From NCBI RefSeq assembly GCF_024628725.1, contig NZ_CP102411.1, forward strand, positions 1 to 64,000: a DNA stretch of 64,000 bases. Direction: 5' to 3'. This document shows, piece after piece, positions 11,893 through 59,019 of this stretch. Within the stretch, counting starts at the first letter, position 1, and every line of letters begins with the position of its first letter. The notes below the pieces were generated by a model, which did no database searches, was not told the origin of the DNA, and saw nothing but the letters and a program-made list of their open reading frames with translations. Position numbers and translations under genes: made by a program. This DNA is from Ruegeria sp. YS9 (GTDB lineage Bacteria; Pseudomonadota; Alphaproteobacteria; Rhodobacterales; Rhodobacteraceae).

Positions 11893-11947
11893 CCAGTCGA
11901 ATTGCGCTCAACCTGGGCGCGTCGAAGCAGACGACAAGGACAAAACA

Positions 11948-12502
11948 ATGAACATTCTAAAAATGACCACAGGCGTTGCCCTGGTTTCTCTGTTCGCAGC
12001 CGCCGCCCTGGCGCATGGTGGCGCAACCGGCATCGTCAAAGAACGCATGGATGGTATGTCCGCGATGAAGGACAGCATGAAGATCCTTACGCCGATGATG
12101 CAGGGGAAAACGCCCTACAATGCGCAAACGGTACAAAGCGAAGCCGAGATAATTGGGCGTCATGCTGGTGAAAGCATGACAAAGCTGTTTCCAGAAGGAT
12201 CTGATGGCAAACCCTCGGAGGCCAAACCGGAGATCTGGCAGGATTGGGGTTCCTTTGCTGAATTGGCCAGCCAGTTGGAAACCTACTCTGAAGGCCTCGT
12301 GCTTGCGGCGGACAACGGGTTGATGATGTCCGGGTCGGGGCAAGGTTCGGGCATGATGGGCGGCGCATCCATGATGGGTGGCGGTTCTATGATGGGTGGC
12401 AGTCCAGATCAGACACAACTGTCTGAAATGCCAGCAGATGGTGTGTTCATGATGCTGAGCCAGACTTGCTCGGCGTGTCACACGCAATTTCGGTCGGAAT
12501 AG
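11948..12502 (+). CDS. Cytochrome c' family protein (class II) with a Met/Gly-rich insert
   Basis: The 184-residue exported protein has a signal peptide (residues 1-22), a four-helix segment and a C-terminal haem site CSACH near residue 173, the layout of cytochrome c' in which haem attaches near the C-terminus. Between the helices is an unusual Gly/Met-rich stretch (GMMGGASMMGGGSMMGG, about residues 136-153) of the kind seen in copper-binding proteins. Upstream is aggacaaaac. Cytochromes c' usually bind gases or buffer redox. The Met insert and position suggest a copper link, which is inference. Confidence 0.8.
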   Translation: MNILKMTTGVALVSLFAAAALAHGGATGIVKERMDGMSAMKDSMKILTPMMQGKTPYNAQTVQSEAEIIGRHAGESMTKLFPEGSDGKPSEAKPEIWQDWGSFAELASQLETYSEGLVLAADNGLMMSGSGQGSGMMGGASMMGGGSMMGGSPDQTQLSEMPADGVFMMLSQTCSACHTQFRSE

Positions 12503-49809: not shown

Positions 49810-50169
49810 TCACATATCTATTTGGTCTGAAACGCCTTCGTCTCCGGCGCTAAGCAACGTCAGAATGTCCTGGCAGTTATCTATACGTCCACCGCAGCAG
49901 TCCGCCAGGAGAAAGCCGACGACGCCGTTGATCGCAGGTAGATGTGCAGCGTAGCGGATTTCACGTTGGTTACGGGTGCTTGTCAACAAACCGGCGCGTT
50001 TGAGGATGGCAAGATGGCCTGATAGTGTCGAAGGCTTCGCATCGAGCTGCTCTGCAATTGTCAGCGCGGGAACACCATTGGGCGACGCTTTCACTAAAAG
50101 CCGAAACGCAGCCAATCGTGTCGGATGGGCGAGAGCGGCAAAGGTGTCGATAGCGGAGTTTTGGTCCAT
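49810..50169 (-). CDS. arsR: ArsR-family arsenic-responsive repressor
   Basis: A 119-residue winged-helix repressor: AALAHPTRLAAFRLLVKA, then ALTIAEQLDAKPSTLSGHLAILKRAGLL. It has a C-terminal Cys cluster DCCGGRIDNC (Cys91, Cys92, Cys99), a vicinal pair plus a third Cys that could make a three-coordinate As(III) site, as in C-terminal-site ArsR proteins. The usual ELCVCDL site is absent. It is divergent from the operon beginning at 50263, with a 93-bp gap that contains an inverted repeat. It most likely represses itself and that operon until As(III) or Sb(III) binds. Confidence 0.9.
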   Translation of the reverse strand: MDQNSAIDTFAALAHPTRLAAFRLLVKASPNGVPALTIAEQLDAKPSTLSGHLAILKRAGLLTSTRNQREIRYAAHLPAINGVVGFLLADCCGGRIDNCQDILTLLSAGDEGVSDQIDM

Positions 50170-50235
50170 AATTCGTCAATGCCCGAAATATCGAAGCTTG
50201 ACCAGTGGGCAAGACTGCAATACCCCAAAAGCCAA

Positions 50236-50251
50236 TTCGGCAATCGCCGAA
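50236..50251. promoter_or_regulatory. Candidate ArsR operator
   Basis: Perfect dyad TTCGGCAATCGCCGAA (6-bp arms, 4-bp centre) in the arsR-operon gap, 11 bp before the first gene of the plus-strand operon. Confidence 0.5.
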
Positions 50252-50262
50252 ATGAGGGGCGC

Positions 50263-51264
50263 ATGAGCGGAACATCGATCACATCGGAAGTTGATTTTGA
50301 GGCGATGGGCAAACAGCAGGGCTACCTGCGGGTGCCGCATTCGGTCCATCGCTCCGCCTATGGGTGGATCCCGTTGCCGATCACTGTCCTGCGCAATGAT
50401 GACGGACCGACACTGGTTGTTTCAGCCGGCGTGCATGGAGACGAATACGAGGGCCAGATCGCGGTGGCCAACCTTGCGCGCCAGCTCGACGCGTCCGATA
50501 TCCGCGGACGGCTGATCTTGCTGCCGATGGTGAATCTTCCGGCCGCAGAGGCCGGTTGCCGAGTGTCCCCAATCGATGATGGCAACCTGAACCGGCTTTA
50601 TCCGGGTGATCCGAAGGGAACGCCCTCTGAAATGATTGCGCACTATCATGAGGAGGTAATCCTGCCCTTGGCTGACTACGCGGTCGATCTGCATTCCGGC
50701 GGATCGTCTCTGATCTATCCCTCCACCGTTCTGCGAGGTCCGTCCCATTCGCCGGAAGAAGAACAGGGTTTGTCGCTGCTGACTGAGGCCTTCGATCTGC
50801 CTTATGCGTGGGTGTTTACCAGTGGCGGTGGAAAAGACAGTTCAGCGCGGACGGCCATGGGGGCTGCCAACCGTAAGGGCGTCGTCAATGTCATGGCGGA
50901 ACTTGGTGGCGGCAACTGCGTAACGCCGGACATTCTGCGCCAAACAGAGAGGGGGCTGCGACGGATCCTGCACGCCCTTGGTATGTTGCCTGGCCATGAA
51001 CCCGATGAAGCGCAGGGCACACGTGCGCTCAATGCGAAGGGCTCTGTTTACGCCTACGACGCAGGCCTGTTCGAGCCGCTGAAAACCATCGGCGACGCTG
51101 TCGTCTTTGGCGAGGTCATCGCGCGGATCCATCATCCCGAAACTCCGGGCCGCGCCCCGGATGAGGTTACATCGCCCTACGACGGCATCGTTCTGGCGAA
51201 GCGCGCCATGGCACAGGTCAGGCGTGGTGATGCGCTCTATCAAATCGCGGCGGAGGCGGGTTGA
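50263..51264 (+). CDS. DoeB/EutE-like N-acetyl-2,4-diaminobutyrate deacetylase-family enzyme
   Basis: A 333-residue aspartoacylase/succinylglutamate-desuccinylase-type zinc enzyme. The zinc motif is VSAGVHGDEYEGQ (His and Glu) near residue 66, with the third ligand in VDLHSGGSS near 148, and a beta-barrel C-terminal domain with TSPYDGIVLAKRAMAQVRRGD. This arrangement matches DoeB/EutE of ectoine degradation, which deacetylates N-acetyl-diaminobutyrate. The expected partner DoeA (ectoine hydrolase) is not nearby. ATG 50263 follows gaggggc; the frame to 50125 was rejected. It is the first gene of the arsR-linked operon, so the true substrate is open. Confidence 0.82.
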   Translation: MSGTSITSEVDFEAMGKQQGYLRVPHSVHRSAYGWIPLPITVLRNDDGPTLVVSAGVHGDEYEGQIAVANLARQLDASDIRGRLILLPMVNLPAAEAGCRVSPIDDGNLNRLYPGDPKGTPSEMIAHYHEEVILPLADYAVDLHSGGSSLIYPSTVLRGPSHSPEEEQGLSLLTEAFDLPYAWVFTSGGGKDSSARTAMGAANRKGVVNVMAELGGGNCVTPDILRQTERGLRRILHALGMLPGHEPDEAQGTRALNAKGSVYAYDAGLFEPLKTIGDAVVFGEVIARIHHPETPGRAPDEVTSPYDGIVLAKRAMAQVRRGDALYQIAAEAG

Positions 51265-51265
51265 T

Positions 51266-52243
51266 ATGGGGCGGCATCCGGTATCCCTCAGTGACATGCG
51301 CGAGGCAGCGACCGCCTTGGACGGCGTGGTGAGCCGCACGCCGCTGCTGGAAAACCCGGATGTGAACGCGATGCTCGGAGGGCGTCTGCTGCTCAAGGCC
51401 GAGAATATGCAGCGCACCGGAGCTTTCAAAATCAGAGGTGCCTATCATCGGCTTTTGAACCTGACGGATGAGGAGCGGGCGAGGGGCGCGGTGTCCTATT
51501 CCTCCGGCAACCACGCGCTCGGGCTGGCGCAGGCGGCCGCGATCATGGGAACCTCGGCAGTGATCGTCATGCCGTCGGACGCGCCCGAGGCCAAGCAAGC
51601 CGCCGTCCGGGCCATGGGGGCCGAGATCGCAACCTATGACCGCGACACACAGGACAGCGCGGATGTTGTGGCGCAGATCATCGCCAATACTGGGCGGATT
51701 GAAGTTCCCCCGAGTGCGCACCCGCAAATCCTGGCCGGGGCGGGAACCGCTGCTTTGGAAATTATTGAGGCCGCGGGCGGGCCGATTGATGCAGTCCTAA
51801 TCCCCTGCGGCGGCGGCGGGCTCACGGCGGCGACGGCTGTGGTCATGGCAGAGGCCTCACCCGGAACCGAAGTCTTTGCCGCCGAACCAACGCTTTTCGA
51901 TGATACGCGCCGCTCGCTCTCAACGGGCAAACGCGTGCCGAACCCAAAAGGCCAGCGAACCATCTGTGACGCGATCATGACGCCGATCCCCGGCGAGATG
52001 ACGTTTGCCATCAATCGCGACCTTCTGGCCGGTGGCGTGACCGCCACGGATGACGAGGTACGGGGCGCTATGCGCTTTGCGTATCAGCAATTCAAGATCG
52101 TGACAGAGCCCGGCGCGGTGGTGGGTCTGGCCGCCATTCTAAACGGACAGGTGCCGATTGAGAACCGCACCGTCGCGACCGTGATCACGGGTGGCAATAT
52201 CGACCCCCTGCGCTTTGCACAGCTTTTGGAGACACCCCAATGA
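51266..52243 (+). CDS. Threonine-dehydratase-like PLP enzyme (EutB-like)
   Basis: A 325-residue fold type II PLP enzyme of the serine/threonine dehydratase family. The PLP Lys is in GAFKIRGAYHRL near residue 54, with SYSSGNHALG near 80 and the phosphate loop IPCGGGGLTAA near 178. Known family members remove water and ammonia from hydroxy-amino acids. EutB acts in hydroxyectoine use. It has no regulatory ACT domain. It starts one base after the deacetylase stop and overlaps the aquaporin start (ATGA), so it is tightly co-translated. Confidence 0.85.
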   Translation: MGRHPVSLSDMREAATALDGVVSRTPLLENPDVNAMLGGRLLLKAENMQRTGAFKIRGAYHRLLNLTDEERARGAVSYSSGNHALGLAQAAAIMGTSAVIVMPSDAPEAKQAAVRAMGAEIATYDRDTQDSADVVAQIIANTGRIEVPPSAHPQILAGAGTAALEIIEAAGGPIDAVLIPCGGGGLTAATAVVMAEASPGTEVFAAEPTLFDDTRRSLSTGKRVPNPKGQRTICDAIMTPIPGEMTFAINRDLLAGGVTATDDEVRGAMRFAYQQFKIVTEPGAVVGLAAILNGQVPIENRTVATVITGGNIDPLRFAQLLETPQ

Positions 52244-52905
52244 CCCTTGATCGCCGCCTGATGGCCGAATGGCTCGGCACCTTTTCCCTGCTCGCGACAG
52301 TCGTCGGTTCCGGCATCATGGCCGAACGACTGGCAGGCGGCAACGTGGCGGTAGCCCTGTTGGGCAACACGATCCCCACCGGAGCGATCCTCGTTGTGCT
52401 GATCACCGTGTTCGGGCCTATCTCGGGTGCGCACTTTAATCCTGCCGTGACGCTGTCCTTTGCCTTGCGGCGCGAGATCGCCCCAAAAGAAGCCACTCTC
52501 TATGTCATGGCGCAGATCTTCGGAGGCATCATAGGCGTGCTCGCGGCGCACGTCATGTTCGAACACCCGTTGATTGATGCCTCTACGACAGCGCGGACGG
52601 GCATTGGCCAATGGGCGGGCGAATTCGTTGCGACCTTTGGTCTGATTGGCACAATCCTTGCCTGCATCAAGGCGCGCCCTCAGGCGGTGCCGATGGCCGT
52701 TGGGCTATATATAACGGCGGCTTACTGGTTCACGTCTTCTACCTCTTTCGCCAACCCTGCCGTCACCATCGCGCGCGGGTTCTCGAACACTTTCGCTGGA
52801 ATTGCGCCGGGAGACGTCGCCGCTTTCATTGCGATGCAGCTGGTCGCGGCTGTCCTCGCGACATGGTTCTTCCGCTGGATGCTTGAGGACGCGTCCGATG
52901 GCTGA
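52240..52905 (+). CDS. aqpS: Aquaporin, AqpS-type, in an ars operon
   Basis: A 221-residue MIP-family channel with six helices and both NPA boxes (HFNPAVT near 68 and FANPAVT near 170). The usual N-terminal Glu (AEWLGTF) and a helix-5 Thr/Ser-rich pore are present. In rhizobia an aquaporin gene sits in ars operons and lets arsenite out of the cell. The same neighbourhood, arsR and arsH, supports that role here. It overlaps the genes on both sides. Confidence 0.87.
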   Translation: MTLDRRLMAEWLGTFSLLATVVGSGIMAERLAGGNVAVALLGNTIPTGAILVVLITVFGPISGAHFNPAVTLSFALRREIAPKEATLYVMAQIFGGIIGVLAAHVMFEHPLIDASTTARTGIGQWAGEFVATFGLIGTILACIKARPQAVPMAVGLYITAAYWFTSSTSFANPAVTIARGFSNTFAGIAPGDVAAFIAMQLVAAVLATWFFRWMLEDASDG

Positions 52906-54088
52906 GTTTGACTTTGATGAAGTGATCGACCGGCGCGTGGTTCCCGGTTTGAAGCACCATAAGATGGTACTGGGCGAGGACGGGATGGATCTATTTCCGG
53001 CAGGTGTCGCTGATATGGATTACCGCGTAGCCCCTTGCATCACTGATGCAATGGCAGAACGCGCCGCGCACGGCGTGTTCGGATACGAAACCGTGCCGGA
53101 TGGCTTGATACCTGCGTTAACCGGCTGGCTGGAAAGCCGACATGGCTGGATAGTCGATCCCGCCCATATCCTGCGCTCGCCGAACATACTCAATGCGCTC
53201 TCCATGGCCGCGAACCTGTTCACCGAAGTGGGTGACGGGATTATCGTGCAGCCGCCCGTCTTCTTCGATTTTGCGGATATCATCGCCGAGAACGGCCGCG
53301 TTCTGGTCGAGAACCCTCTGATCCTGGAAGACGGTCGCTACCATATGGATTTTGATGGGCTGGAGCGGGCCGCGTGCGATCCACGGGCGCGCATGCTCTT
53401 TCTGTGTAACCCGCACAATCCAGTGGGCCGTGTCTGGACCCGAGATGAGCTTGCCCGGCTGGGTGACATCTGCCGCCGCCATAGTGTTCTTGTTGTCGCG
53501 GACGAGATACATGGCGACATCACCTTTCCCGGCCATGCTTATACGCCTTTTGCCAACGTGTCAGAGGCGGATGCTCGCAACGCAATCATCTGCCTGTCGC
53601 CCGCCAAGAGTTTCAATATCGCCGCGTGCTGTTTGGCCTTCACAATCGTCCCTGATGAGGCCCGCCGACAGGCCTTTCAGGCCGAAAATAGCCGCCTCAC
53701 GGTCAATAAAAACAACGCCTTTGCCTCTGTCGCCATGCAGGCGGCCTACGCCGAGGGTGGCCCATGGCTGGACGCTGCAAACCGGTACATTTTGGGCAAC
53801 CTCGCTCTCGTGCGCACCCGTATCGCAAAGCTACAAGAGGTAAAGTTGATCGAGCCAGACGGCACGTTTCTGCTTTGGCTCGATTTCAGGAAACTGGGCC
53901 TCAAGCCGGATGAGCTAACAGCCGTTCTTCGCGAAAAGGCCGGTTGGGCAATTACGCGAGGCATCGTTTTTGGCCCTCAAGGGGCTGGATTTGGCCGCAT
54001 GAACATTGCTTGCCCAAGAAGTAAACTTATCGCGGCGTTGGAGACTCTGGAACGCGCAATGGCCGAGCACCGAAAGGACGCAACATGA
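52898..54088 (+). CDS. MalY/PatB-type PLP C-S lyase (aminotransferase class I fold)
   Basis: A 396-residue fold type I PLP enzyme. The N-terminal MalY/PatB signature is [20 protein letters not shown], the substrate contact [10 protein letters not shown] is near residue 168, the PLP Asp is in [10 protein letters not shown] near 200, and the PLP Lys is in SPAKSFNIA near 233. PatB/MalY enzymes cleave cystathionine or S-conjugated cysteine to a thiol, pyruvate and ammonia. ATG 52898 overlaps the aquaporin stop by eight bases. A role in releasing a thiol or metabolising a thiol- or arsenic-bearing amino acid is inference from context. Confidence 0.88.
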
Positions 54089-54795
54089 CCGACACGCCTC
54101 AGTTGTCCGAAGATCATTTCCAGCCATTCGCCAACGACCGGTTGTTTGCCGAAAAACGATCAACTCATGGACCGCGTATCTTGTTACTCTACGGCTCGCT
54201 CAGGCAGCGATCCTTCAGCCGACTAATGACCGAGGAAGCCGCACGTGTTTTGGAACGGCTTGGTGCGGAACCTCGCAGCTTTGATCCGTCCGGACTGCCG
54301 CTGCCGGACGATGCCGACGCCGACCACCCGAAAGTGCAGGAACTACGAGATCTCGTCACGTGGAGCGAGGGCATGGTCTGGTGTTCTCCAGAACGCCACG
54401 GTGCCATGACCGGTATCATGAAGTCCCAGATTGACTGGATACCACTGTCCATTGGCGCAGTGCGCCCGACACAAGGCAAGACACTGGCGGTCATGCAGGT
54501 CTGTGGCGGCTCGCAAAGCTTCAACGCCGTCAATCAGCTTCGCGTTTTGGGGCGCTGGATGCGGTGCCTGACTATCCCGAACCAATCTTCGGTTCCGAAA
54601 GCGTTTCAACAGTTTGGCGACGACGACAGAATGAAGCCGTCCTCATATTACGACCGCATGGTCGATGTGATGGAAGAACTGGTGAAGTTCACGTTGCTGA
54701 CCCGCGACGTGTCTTCTTACCTCGTTGATCGCTACAGCGAACGAAAAGAAACAGGCGAAGCGCTGATCGCGCGGGTCAACAGAACTGCAAGTTGA
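54085..54795 (+). CDS. arsH: ArsH flavoprotein
   Basis: A 236-residue NADPH-dependent FMN protein that oxidises trivalent organoarsenicals and protects against arsenic. It has the flavodoxin-like phosphate loop [15 protein letters not shown] near residue 35, [19 protein letters not shown] near 98, and the ArsH-specific [26 protein letters not shown]. Its start overlaps the PatB stop (ATGA). It is the last gene of the run and the clearest sign that the operon is arsenic-linked. Confidence 0.94.
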
Positions 54796-58089: not shown

Positions 58090-59019
58090 CTAGGCAATGG
58101 CAGCAGTGATTTCTTGGACATGGCGGTGATCGGTGCCGCAGCATCCGCCGACCACGTTGAGATTGGGTAGGAGTTCCTTCAATTCGACATAGAGACCTGC
58201 CAATTCGCGTGCATCGCCCTCATCAAGCTCTTCTGCCTCATCCAATTCGGCATGACTCAAGCGCGACGCATTGGCCCGGACTGAATGGATACGCGACAGC
58301 CAATCGTCGTTGCCGCGCAGCTTGTCCGAGAAATGGTCGGGATGGGCGCAATTGACCATGTAATAAACGGGCGGTGTGTCGCAGGCGGCGTCGACGGATT
58401 CGATGGCTTCGCCCAGCGGTGTGCCGTCCGGCAGACGACCGTCGGTTTCTACCGTAAAGCCGATGACGCAGGGCAACCCAGCCTTGGCTGCGGCCCGTGC
58501 GATGCCTATGGCTTCGTTCGGGTTGGTCATGGTAATCGCCGACACCATATCGGCGTTTGACGTTGCGAATGCCCCGATCTGAACGGCGTGATAGGCCTCG
58601 GCCTCTTCCATAGTCATTGTTTCGCCGGGCACATAGCCATCACCGCGTGGCCCGATATTGCCGCTGACAACGACAGGGACAGAGGCGTTCGCGTTGGCGC
58701 GCAGGTCCGACAGTAGTGCGATGGCTTCGCGGTTGATCTCGACGATGTCCGACGCCGAATAGCCAAGGCGTGCGCCCCATTCCGGGCTTGCCCTCCAGGT
58801 CGGGCTTTCAAGAATGACGCCCATGTCGCGTTCCTCGCCGAGTGCGATGAAGGGTTTGAAATAATCGGCCAGGGCCTGGCGGCCCGCATCCGAACGAACG
58901 GTTTCGAAGGAAGCGAATTCCCGCAGCTCGGTTCCATTCTTGAAGATCAGCCAGGTCTCAAGACCGGCATCGGTCAGAAAGGTCTGACCATTGAGTTGCG
59001 GCAGGTTGTTGCGGAACAT
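58090..59019 (-). CDS. Homocysteine S-methyltransferase-family protein (paralogue 2)
   Basis: A 309-residue zinc methyltransferase barrel with FLTDAGLETWLIF at the N-terminus, VNCAHPDHF near residue 225 and GGCCGTDHRHV near 292 for zinc. It is clearly related to the protein at 44984: both have SHAELDEADELDEG- or SHAELDEAEELDEG-like stretches. The methyl donor is unknown. The start is preceded by caggagagaaac. The large SARP-type regulator gene lies upstream on the same strand and may control it. Confidence 0.87.
   Translation of the reverse strand: MFRNNLPQLNGQTFLTDAGLETWLIFKNGTELREFASFETVRSDAGRQALADYFKPFIALGEERDMGVILESPTWRASPEWGARLGYSASDIVEINREAIALLSDLRANANASVPVVVSGNIGPRGDGYVPGETMTMEEAEAYHAVQIGAFATSNADMVSAITMTNPNEAIGIARAAAKAGLPCVIGFTVETDGRLPDGTPLGEAIESVDAACDTPPVYYMVNCAHPDHFSDKLRGNDDWLSRIHSVRANASRLSHAELDEAEELDEGDARELAGLYVELKELLPNLNVVGGCCGTDHRHVQEITAAIA

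Follow-up and report, generated by a model that had tools for sequence, protein, structure and literature searches.

Introduction

Arsenic resistance operons of the aqpS type contain the repressor ArsR, the aquaporin-family channel AqpS and ArsH, with an annotated gene order on a Sinorhizobium meliloti plasmid of ArsR-ArsC-AqpS-ArsH. For SAR11, the pairing of ArsC with AqpS has been put forward in the literature as a module for arsenic resistance (PMC6426599). Organoarsenical defence involves ArsI, a carbon-arsenic lyase that converts the methylarsenical MAs(III) to As(III) and formaldehyde, and ArsH, which oxidizes trivalent organoarsenicals; in addition, ArsD passes arsenite to ArsA (PMC6205960). 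Microbes must break down marine organic arsenic, and few enzymes for this task are known. Here we analyzed an ars operon of Ruegeria sp. YS9, located in a 64,000-nucleotide stretch (the window, positions 1 to 64,000 of NZ_CP102411.1) that is part of a 130,925-bp contig (C3) of a 4.3-Mb genome. By sequence, this operon has the As(III) cysteine triad in its regulator, AqpS and ArsH, but no arsC beside aqpS. In contrast to the aqpS-type operons, ArsC is mostly missing from this group of loci, with amino-acid enzymes in its place, and the arsR of the window is divergent.

We propose, with a probability of about 40%, that this operon is an ArsR-controlled module that would release trivalent arsenic from an amino-acid-type arsenical, with exit of the arsenic through AqpS; we infer both the substrate and the chemistry. 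The features observed at the sequence level are the recurrent linkage of the genes, a regulator of the As(III) type, operator-like sites, a separate AqpS lineage, altered residues in the lyase, and two alternative sets of proteins that handle trivalent arsenic. Each part comes from a known family, and their combination is a variant ars operon with possibly new enzyme chemistry. Word searches of a limited literature collection found no description of this gene combination.

Organization of the operon

A sequence-only reading of the window had described a divergent arsR with Cys91, Cys92 and Cys99, facing five tightly spaced genes. Its coordinates, overlaps and cysteines were confirmed, and all six genes are open (Table 1). 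A gap of 1 bp separates the doeB-like and dehydratase genes, followed by overlaps of 4 bp (dehydratase and aqpS), 8 bp (aqpS and patB) and 4 bp (patB and arsH).

Table 1. Genes and operator-like sites of the arsenic operon in the window
Feature	Position	Strand	Evidence or location
arsR, ArsR/SmtB repressor with C91/C92/C99 As(III)-type site	49810..50169	-	HTH_metalloreg 59.0 bits (cut-off 55)
Operator-like inverted repeat 1, TAATTCG-N8-CGAAATA	50169..50190		At arsR start
Operator-like inverted repeat 2, TTCGG-N6-CCGAA	50236..50251		Just upstream of doeB
DoeB/AstE-AspA-type N-deacylase (doeB-like)	50263..51264	+	PF24827 123 bits; TIGR02994 230.9 bits, below cut-off 402.7
Fold-type II pyridoxal 5'-phosphate (PLP) enzyme (threonine dehydratase/serine racemase/3-hydroxyaspartate ammonia-lyase group)	51266..52243	+	PF00291 227 bits
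aqpS, aquaporin-family arsenic channel	52240..52905	+	Pfam MIP PF00230 85.8 bits (cut-off 25)
PatB/MalY-type PLP lyase, altered substrate pocket	52898..54088	+	C_S_lyase_PatB TIGR04350 402.6 bits (cut-off 340)
arsH, trivalent-organoarsenical oxidase family	54085..54795	+	TIGR02690 403 bits (cut-off 292.25)

ArsR, AqpS (in Pfam), PatB and ArsH exceed the curated cut-offs, and the window AqpS is ~64% identical to the S. meliloti plasmid copies. The assignments of the DoeB-like and dehydratase-type proteins stop at the level of the family, short of a named enzyme. The former shares the AstE/AspA domain with the N-acetyl-diaminobutyrate deacetylase DoeB/EutE, but scores far under the equivalog cut-off. 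The latter does not reach the equivalog cut-offs for threo-3-hydroxyaspartate ammonia-lyase/EutB (best NCBIfam match NF005454, 291 bits against a cut-off of 452; TIGR02991, 191 against 413.35). Relatives with solved structures are 3cdx, 6twl and 6twm for the deacylase, 1v71, 6lut and 2gn0 for the dehydratase-type enzyme, and 6qp3 and 4dgt for the PatB-type enzyme.

Family profile scans of the six genes revealed no arsC, acr3 or arsB, as the sequence-only reading had noted, although acr3 and ArsC-like matches are present elsewhere in the genome, on contig C1. The six genes also gave no match to a radical-SAM or methyltransferase family, so they include no arsL or arsM; arsM was not searched genome-wide. 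An arsinothricin biosynthesis cluster (arsQML) was rejected on this absence of arsL and arsM from the operon. A role in ectoine breakdown was likewise rejected, because the DoeB and EutB models score far under cut-off and the nine window proteins scanned include none for ectoine transport or ring opening. A DoeB relative with 45.5% identity on a Rhizobium plasmid adjoins ectoine-type transport genes, and another with 46% identity on a Paraburkholderia plasmid adjoins GNAT, LLM-oxidoreductase and ABC genes.

Recurrence of the PatB clade and its linkage to ars genes

Genome contigs were scanned with an alignment of nine PatB sequences, giving 132 relatives, and the counts below refer to the best 80. 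Gene maps were constructed by tblastn with reference proteins, counting partial matches; several contigs end near PatB, and missing genes may lie off the contig. The controls, 22 ordinary PatB loci (35-38% identity) and 29 AqpS loci (L043-L071), were the best-scoring loci rather than random ones, and have flanks of only 1.5 kb, so comparisons with them were made at 1.5 kb. Fisher p values treat related loci as independent, and the trees are quick trees supported only by the Shimodaira-Hasegawa-like approximate likelihood ratio test (SH-aLRT).

PatB relatives with 64-78% identity were found in 7 of 291 other genomes of the order, and the next among the matches listed had at most 39%. The best 80 belong mostly to marine Rhodobacterales, and also to records named Kiloniellaceae, Hyphomicrobiales, SAR324 and Photobacterium (names of metagenome-assembled genomes may be wrong). 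Strains with a PatB-clade locus include Roseobacter sp. MED193 (L078), Sulfitobacter mediterraneus DSM 12244 (L105) and Cognatishimia sp. F0-27 (L081).

An ars gene was present within 1.5 kb in 53 of the 80 PatB-clade loci, compared with none of the 22 ordinary PatB loci (Fisher p 4e-9). Extending the distance to 5 kb also gave 53 loci; 43 of the 80 have an ars gene besides ArsR or AqpS, and 10 of the 53 are linked through ArsR or AqpS alone. The genes found within 5 kb of PatB were ArsR (39 loci), AqpS (39), DoeB (34), the dehydratase (29), ArsA (21), ArsD (21), ArsH (20), a CysM-like PLP enzyme (13) and ArsC (4); Acr3 and ArsB are each present in 3 PatB-clade loci. In all 39 loci having AqpS, it mapped directly before PatB. 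On the PatB tree, the ars label changes 14 times, compared with 23.3 in shuffles (0/500 as low), a result to which near-copies contribute.

Chance adjacency of the operon genes is very unlikely given this recurrence across many genomes, and was rejected. The linkage of the amino-acid enzymes to arsenic is well supported by gene neighborhood, and this part of the sequence-only reading is supported by the 53 linked loci together with a conserved ArsR promoter region and a separate AqpS clade. The complete order of all six genes was mapped in four loci (L084, L092, L101, L105), two of which (L084 and L101) gave an incomplete dehydratase match. A further locus, L091, has this order minus arsR; its contig begins inside doeB. 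DoeB and ArsH are optional.

A plasmid collection contained two records of this PatB clade at E<=1e-100, from Salipiger (L031, NZ_CP014597.1; outside the 80) and from strain SC52 (L162). The SC52 plasmid carries a lone PatB, with no ars genes in the annotated stretch, and this gene adjoins phosphonate transport genes. A Phyllobacterium plasmid (L164) carries a cluster of ArsR, ArsN2, AqpS, ArsC and ArsH near phosphonate transport genes. The neighbors of a few PatB loci without ars genes did not reveal a common pathway. In L112, L115, L130 and L141, the clade PatB lies between hisG and the gene for a B12-dependent ribonucleotide reductase (nrdJ), which gives no functional clue. DoeB and ArsH were matched only in part in L035/L074 (G021), which suggests that the operon is decaying or has diverged there.

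ArsR and the operator-like sites

The three cysteines of the ArsR site, C91, C92 and C99, are conserved in 37/37, 37/37 and 38/38 covering rows of a 40-row alignment. The nearest solved structure is 6j05 ('Transcriptional regulator ArsR', from Acidithiobacillus), and its CC pair aligns with C91/C92. This ArsR presumably senses trivalent arsenic.

Two inverted repeats bracket the arsR/doeB promoter region. We examined 26 arsR-divergent regions, consisting of the window and 25 loci, using shuffles of two-base blocks as controls; in some loci, both patterns match one repeat. Repeat 1 was present with at most one mismatch in 22 of the 26 regions (shuffle mean 0.02), and exact TTCGG/CCGAA repeats of the repeat 2 type, with spacers of 2, 4, 5 or 6, in 20 (shuffle mean 0.03). 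The window contains two exact N6 matches to repeat 2, compared with 0.14 expected. The motif CTTGACA is present in 18 of the 26 regions, and the window has CTTGACC.

Within the 4.3-Mb genome, repeat 1 without mismatches gave a single match, and repeat 2 gave one further exact match. Allowing two mismatches, repeat 1 matches made up 32 of 34 listed rows, compared with 15 in the reversed control, with palindromes counted on both strands. The search for repeat 1-type sites did not reveal any other clear operator in the genome. In the Salipiger plasmid, a DoeB-dehydratase-PatB cluster retains both repeats with mismatches, at ~11906-11991, which suggests control in trans or a recent loss of arsR.

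AqpS and the position of ArsC

ArsC was present within 1.5 kb of AqpS in 19 of the 29 class-wide AqpS loci, compared with 3 of the 39 PatB-linked loci (Fisher p 6e-7), and the four annotated ordinary aqpS operons contain ArsC inside the cluster. ArsC and the amino-acid enzymes occur together in L074, L077 and L085. None of the 29 class-wide loci contains PatB or DoeB, and two contain a dehydratase (L043 and L063). The module thus appears to take the position beside AqpS that is held in ordinary operons by ArsC, which converts arsenate to arsenite.

The operon AqpS forms one clade (40 rows and L043, SH-aLRT 99), in a tree that contains long-branched ordinary rows. Four diagnostic positions, at the thresholds applied, separate it from ordinary AqpS. 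With so few changes, the solute is probably the same as that of ordinary AqpS, which would fit a new source of the same solute. A plain ars operon merely lacking arsC was rejected, since the recurring set of enzymes is accompanied by an AqpS clade of its own.

L043, also recorded as L157 (G386), has the order ArsR-dehydratase-AqpS and lies in a 93% complete genome from a different family of the class; it was counted among the 29 controls. Among 384 other genomes of the class, its dehydratase (66%) is the only close relative. The 16 that follow have 46-51% identity, and their loci contain no ars genes within 1.5 kb. In L160, a dehydratase with 46% identity adjoins AqpS.

Two versions of the module

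The module occurs in two versions, one ending in ArsH (20 loci) and the other in ArsD-ArsA (21 loci), which were never found together (Fisher 0.001). The dehydratase (29 loci) and the CysM-like enzyme (13 loci) likewise never co-occur (Fisher 0.003), and the CysM-like enzyme is accompanied by ArsD/A in 13/13 loci (Fisher 6e-10). This PLP enzyme of ~350 aa replaces the dehydratase in L104, L109, L113, L114, L116, L121, L128, L129, L136, L142 and L144, and is partial in L117 and L126. Its closest solved relatives, 8h4q and 8h4h, are a rhodanese-domain protein of 525-531 aa; a paper search for these structure codes found nothing.

ArsD-ArsA follow PatB in 18 of the 80 loci. The ArsD-ArsA pair is shared with arsRDABC operons, but ArsB and Acr3 were not detected in 21 of the 22 loci having ArsD or ArsA (some contigs are cut). 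ArsA without ArsB or Acr3 may rely on a different membrane protein, possibly AqpS.

The active site of the lyase

PatB residues are numbered from position 52892, as in the reference used in many comparisons (52892-54088), which starts two residues ahead of the ATG (52898); 2 is subtracted to number from the ATG. We compared 82 clade sequences (the window, the 80 loci and Salipiger) with 22 ordinary Rhodobacterales copies. The PLP lysine K239, the substrate-carboxylate arginine R369, and Y65 are invariant in the 82. The family, the PLP lysine and the carboxylate arginine are shared with the PatB/MalY beta C-S lyases (BsPatB, ShPatB, cystalysin), from which the clade differs by Trp to Gly, Tyr to Phe and Ala/Pro to Asp replacements and by an N-K-N loop.

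These differences correspond to G38, L100, F124, F125, D126 and N272-K273-N274, which are specific to the clade and present in 82/82 sequences. In the ordinary copies, the positions of G38, L100, F124 and F125 are occupied by W, V, Y and H (each 22/22), that of D126 by A (21/22), and those of N272-K273-N274 by S (20), P (18) and a gap (21 of 22). W and Y are likewise found at the G38 and F124 positions in BsPatB (6qp3) and 4dgt.

In ShPatB, the substrate side chain was modelled against Tyr25, Val46, Tyr72, Val108, Pro134, Phe274 and Thr276 (PMC7385124). By motif register rather than superposition, Val46 corresponds to V39, Val108 probably to L100, and Pro134 probably to D126, and Phe274 lies in the altered loop. 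Several of the clade-specific residues thus appear to be at or beside positions of the ShPatB side-chain pocket. The clade pocket is probably more polar and, at G38, more open. Since ars-linked and lone PatB share these residues, the substrate is likely the same in both. A literature search on the active-site tyrosines of cystalysin found no relevant paper.

Proposed function and alternatives

In the proposed release of trivalent arsenic, ArsR would sense trivalent arsenic. The deacylase, when present, would remove the N-acyl group from an amino acid that contains arsenic and so expose its amino group. The PatB-type enzyme would eliminate the arsenic group from a beta-substituted alanine, giving trivalent arsenic, pyruvate and ammonia, helped by a second PLP enzyme, either of the dehydratase type or, in the ArsD/A version, the CysM-like enzyme. 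The freed arsenic would exit down its gradient via AqpS. Downstream, ArsH would oxidize trivalent organic species, or ArsD/ArsA would bind inorganic As(III); given their activities, each would serve after a release of trivalent arsenic. Handling of organic arsenic is shared with the ArsI/ArsH defence, ArsH being part of 20 of the loci, but here a PLP enzyme is proposed instead of ArsI. The sequence-only reading had joined the enzymes into one route of deacetylation, cleavage, oxidation and export. Its link between the enzymes and arsenic stands, but the fixed route is too specific, because ArsH is replaced by ArsD/ArsA in 21 loci and DoeB is optional.

The most specific form of this proposal, a PLP-dependent carbon-arsenic lyase derived from PatB, with a pocket rebuilt for a substrate of the beta-arseno-alanine type and accompanied by the deacylase, the second PLP enzyme and exit through AqpS, is tentative, and we rate it as somewhat unlikely. 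If true, it would represent a breakdown of organoarsenic unrelated to ArsI, and would imply an undescribed marine arsenic amino acid, pointing to an unknown class of marine natural product.

Several observations weigh against the release of arsenic from an amino-acid-type arsenical. No ars gene lies within 5 kb in 27 of the 80 PatB-clade loci, though their pocket residues are the same, and only one of these 27 (L082) has an operator-like site, a one-mismatch repeat 2, in the stretch examined, which covered 300 bp ahead of the first module gene or, at contig starts, a shorter length. Most lone PatB-clade copies are thus probably not under ArsR-type control. Neither of the two plasmid records has adjacent ars genes, and the 93% complete G386 genome, with its ArsR-dehydratase-AqpS locus, has no PatB match at E<=1e-40. 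The separation of the enzymes from the ars genes by conserved neighborhoods, which the sequence-only reading had named as evidence against its idea, is therefore partly observed. Moreover, ArsH is missing from 60 of the 80 loci, DoeB is found in only 34, and the CysM-like partner points equally to sulfur chemistry. Finally, the chemistry of PatB enzymes is described as beta elimination (PMC11203769), whereas arsinothricin, a natural arsenic amino acid, has its arsenic on C4 (PMC8552651).

The main rival to the release of arsenic is a supply of sulfur, since the lyase comes from a family of sulfur enzymes and its CysM-like partner is also of that kind. The PatB-type enzyme would free sulfide or thiols from cysteine or its conjugates under arsenic stress, and these would capture As(III), contribute to glutathione or help to repair Fe-S clusters. 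The CysM-like enzyme or dehydratase would balance cysteine and serine, with AqpS, ArsH and ArsD/A handling arsenic as usual. The TIGR04350 match agrees with this, as the PatB family consists of C-S lyases (PMC11203769), and the Salipiger copy, with both operator-like repeats kept, is ~5 kb or less from genes for thioredoxin reductase, thioredoxin, OsmC and glutaredoxin. Against this, all 82 clade members lack the Trp and Tyr seen in ordinary PatB and have polar pocket residues, which would be unexpected in an enzyme that simply cleaves cysteine or cystathionine; a deacylase would be superfluous, and the rarity of ArsC beside the operon AqpS would be left unexplained. We consider this supply of thiols unlikely; if it is the role, it would be a new arm of bacterial arsenic defence. 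The logic of mercapturate breakdown, which pairs a deacylase with a cysteine-conjugate lyase, suggests instead a clearance in which deacylation and beta elimination turn (N-acyl-)cysteine adducts formed with As(III) or methylarsenicals into thio-arsenicals, which then pass to ArsH or ArsD/A. Even among the 27 loci that lack ars genes, 9 have DoeB near PatB, but 46 of the 80 gave no DoeB match within 5 kb (some contigs are cut), and As-S bonds exchange non-enzymatically. We regard such a clearance as improbable.

The amino-acid enzymes could also be passengers that share the promoter and have no role in arsenic metabolism, as might be expected from the 27 loci in which PatB, alone or with DoeB, lacks ars genes. 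We regard this as quite improbable, since the linkage recurs over the PatB tree (with the help of near-copies) and the AqpS clade tracks the enzymes, with AqpS and PatB adjacent in 39/39 loci. Biosynthesis would reverse the direction of the pathway, with As(OH)3 entering via AqpS, a PLP enzyme coupling arsenic to an activated serine, and ArsH oxidizing the product. ArsH and AqpS would fit such a scheme, and beta replacement is the chemistry of CysM-like enzymes. PatB-type enzymes normally cleave, however, and, apart from generic ABC ATPases, neither a dedicated exporter nor a ligase was present among the 10 annotated representatives of recurrent neighbor clusters. ArsR control would also suit defence better, and biosynthesis is very improbable. 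A recurrent ArsR-linked operon with three candidate enzymes in named strains makes the question of organoarsenic breakdown testable.

Other genes in the genome

A second arsenic locus is present on contig C1 (L156, G000:C1, 6790-11619), and contains an ArsR-ArsC-like open reading frame (ORF) followed by ArsJ (544 bits) and Acr3 (about 392-393 bits), both over cut-off. The first ORF reads as an ArsR-ArsC fusion, with an ArsR-like part (37-38%) and a low-molecular-weight ArsC-like part that is 55% identical to the S. meliloti plasmid ArsC and scores 84.3 bits against TIGR02691 (below the cut-off of 174.3). No ArsB match was found in the genome, and contig C1 has two PF03960 matches over cut-off. 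Given this separate locus, plain arsenate and arsenite handling should not need the window operon, which is therefore likely specialized.

Downstream of the operon, the window contains a gene of the homocysteine S-methyltransferase family (PF02574) at 58090-59019 on the minus strand.

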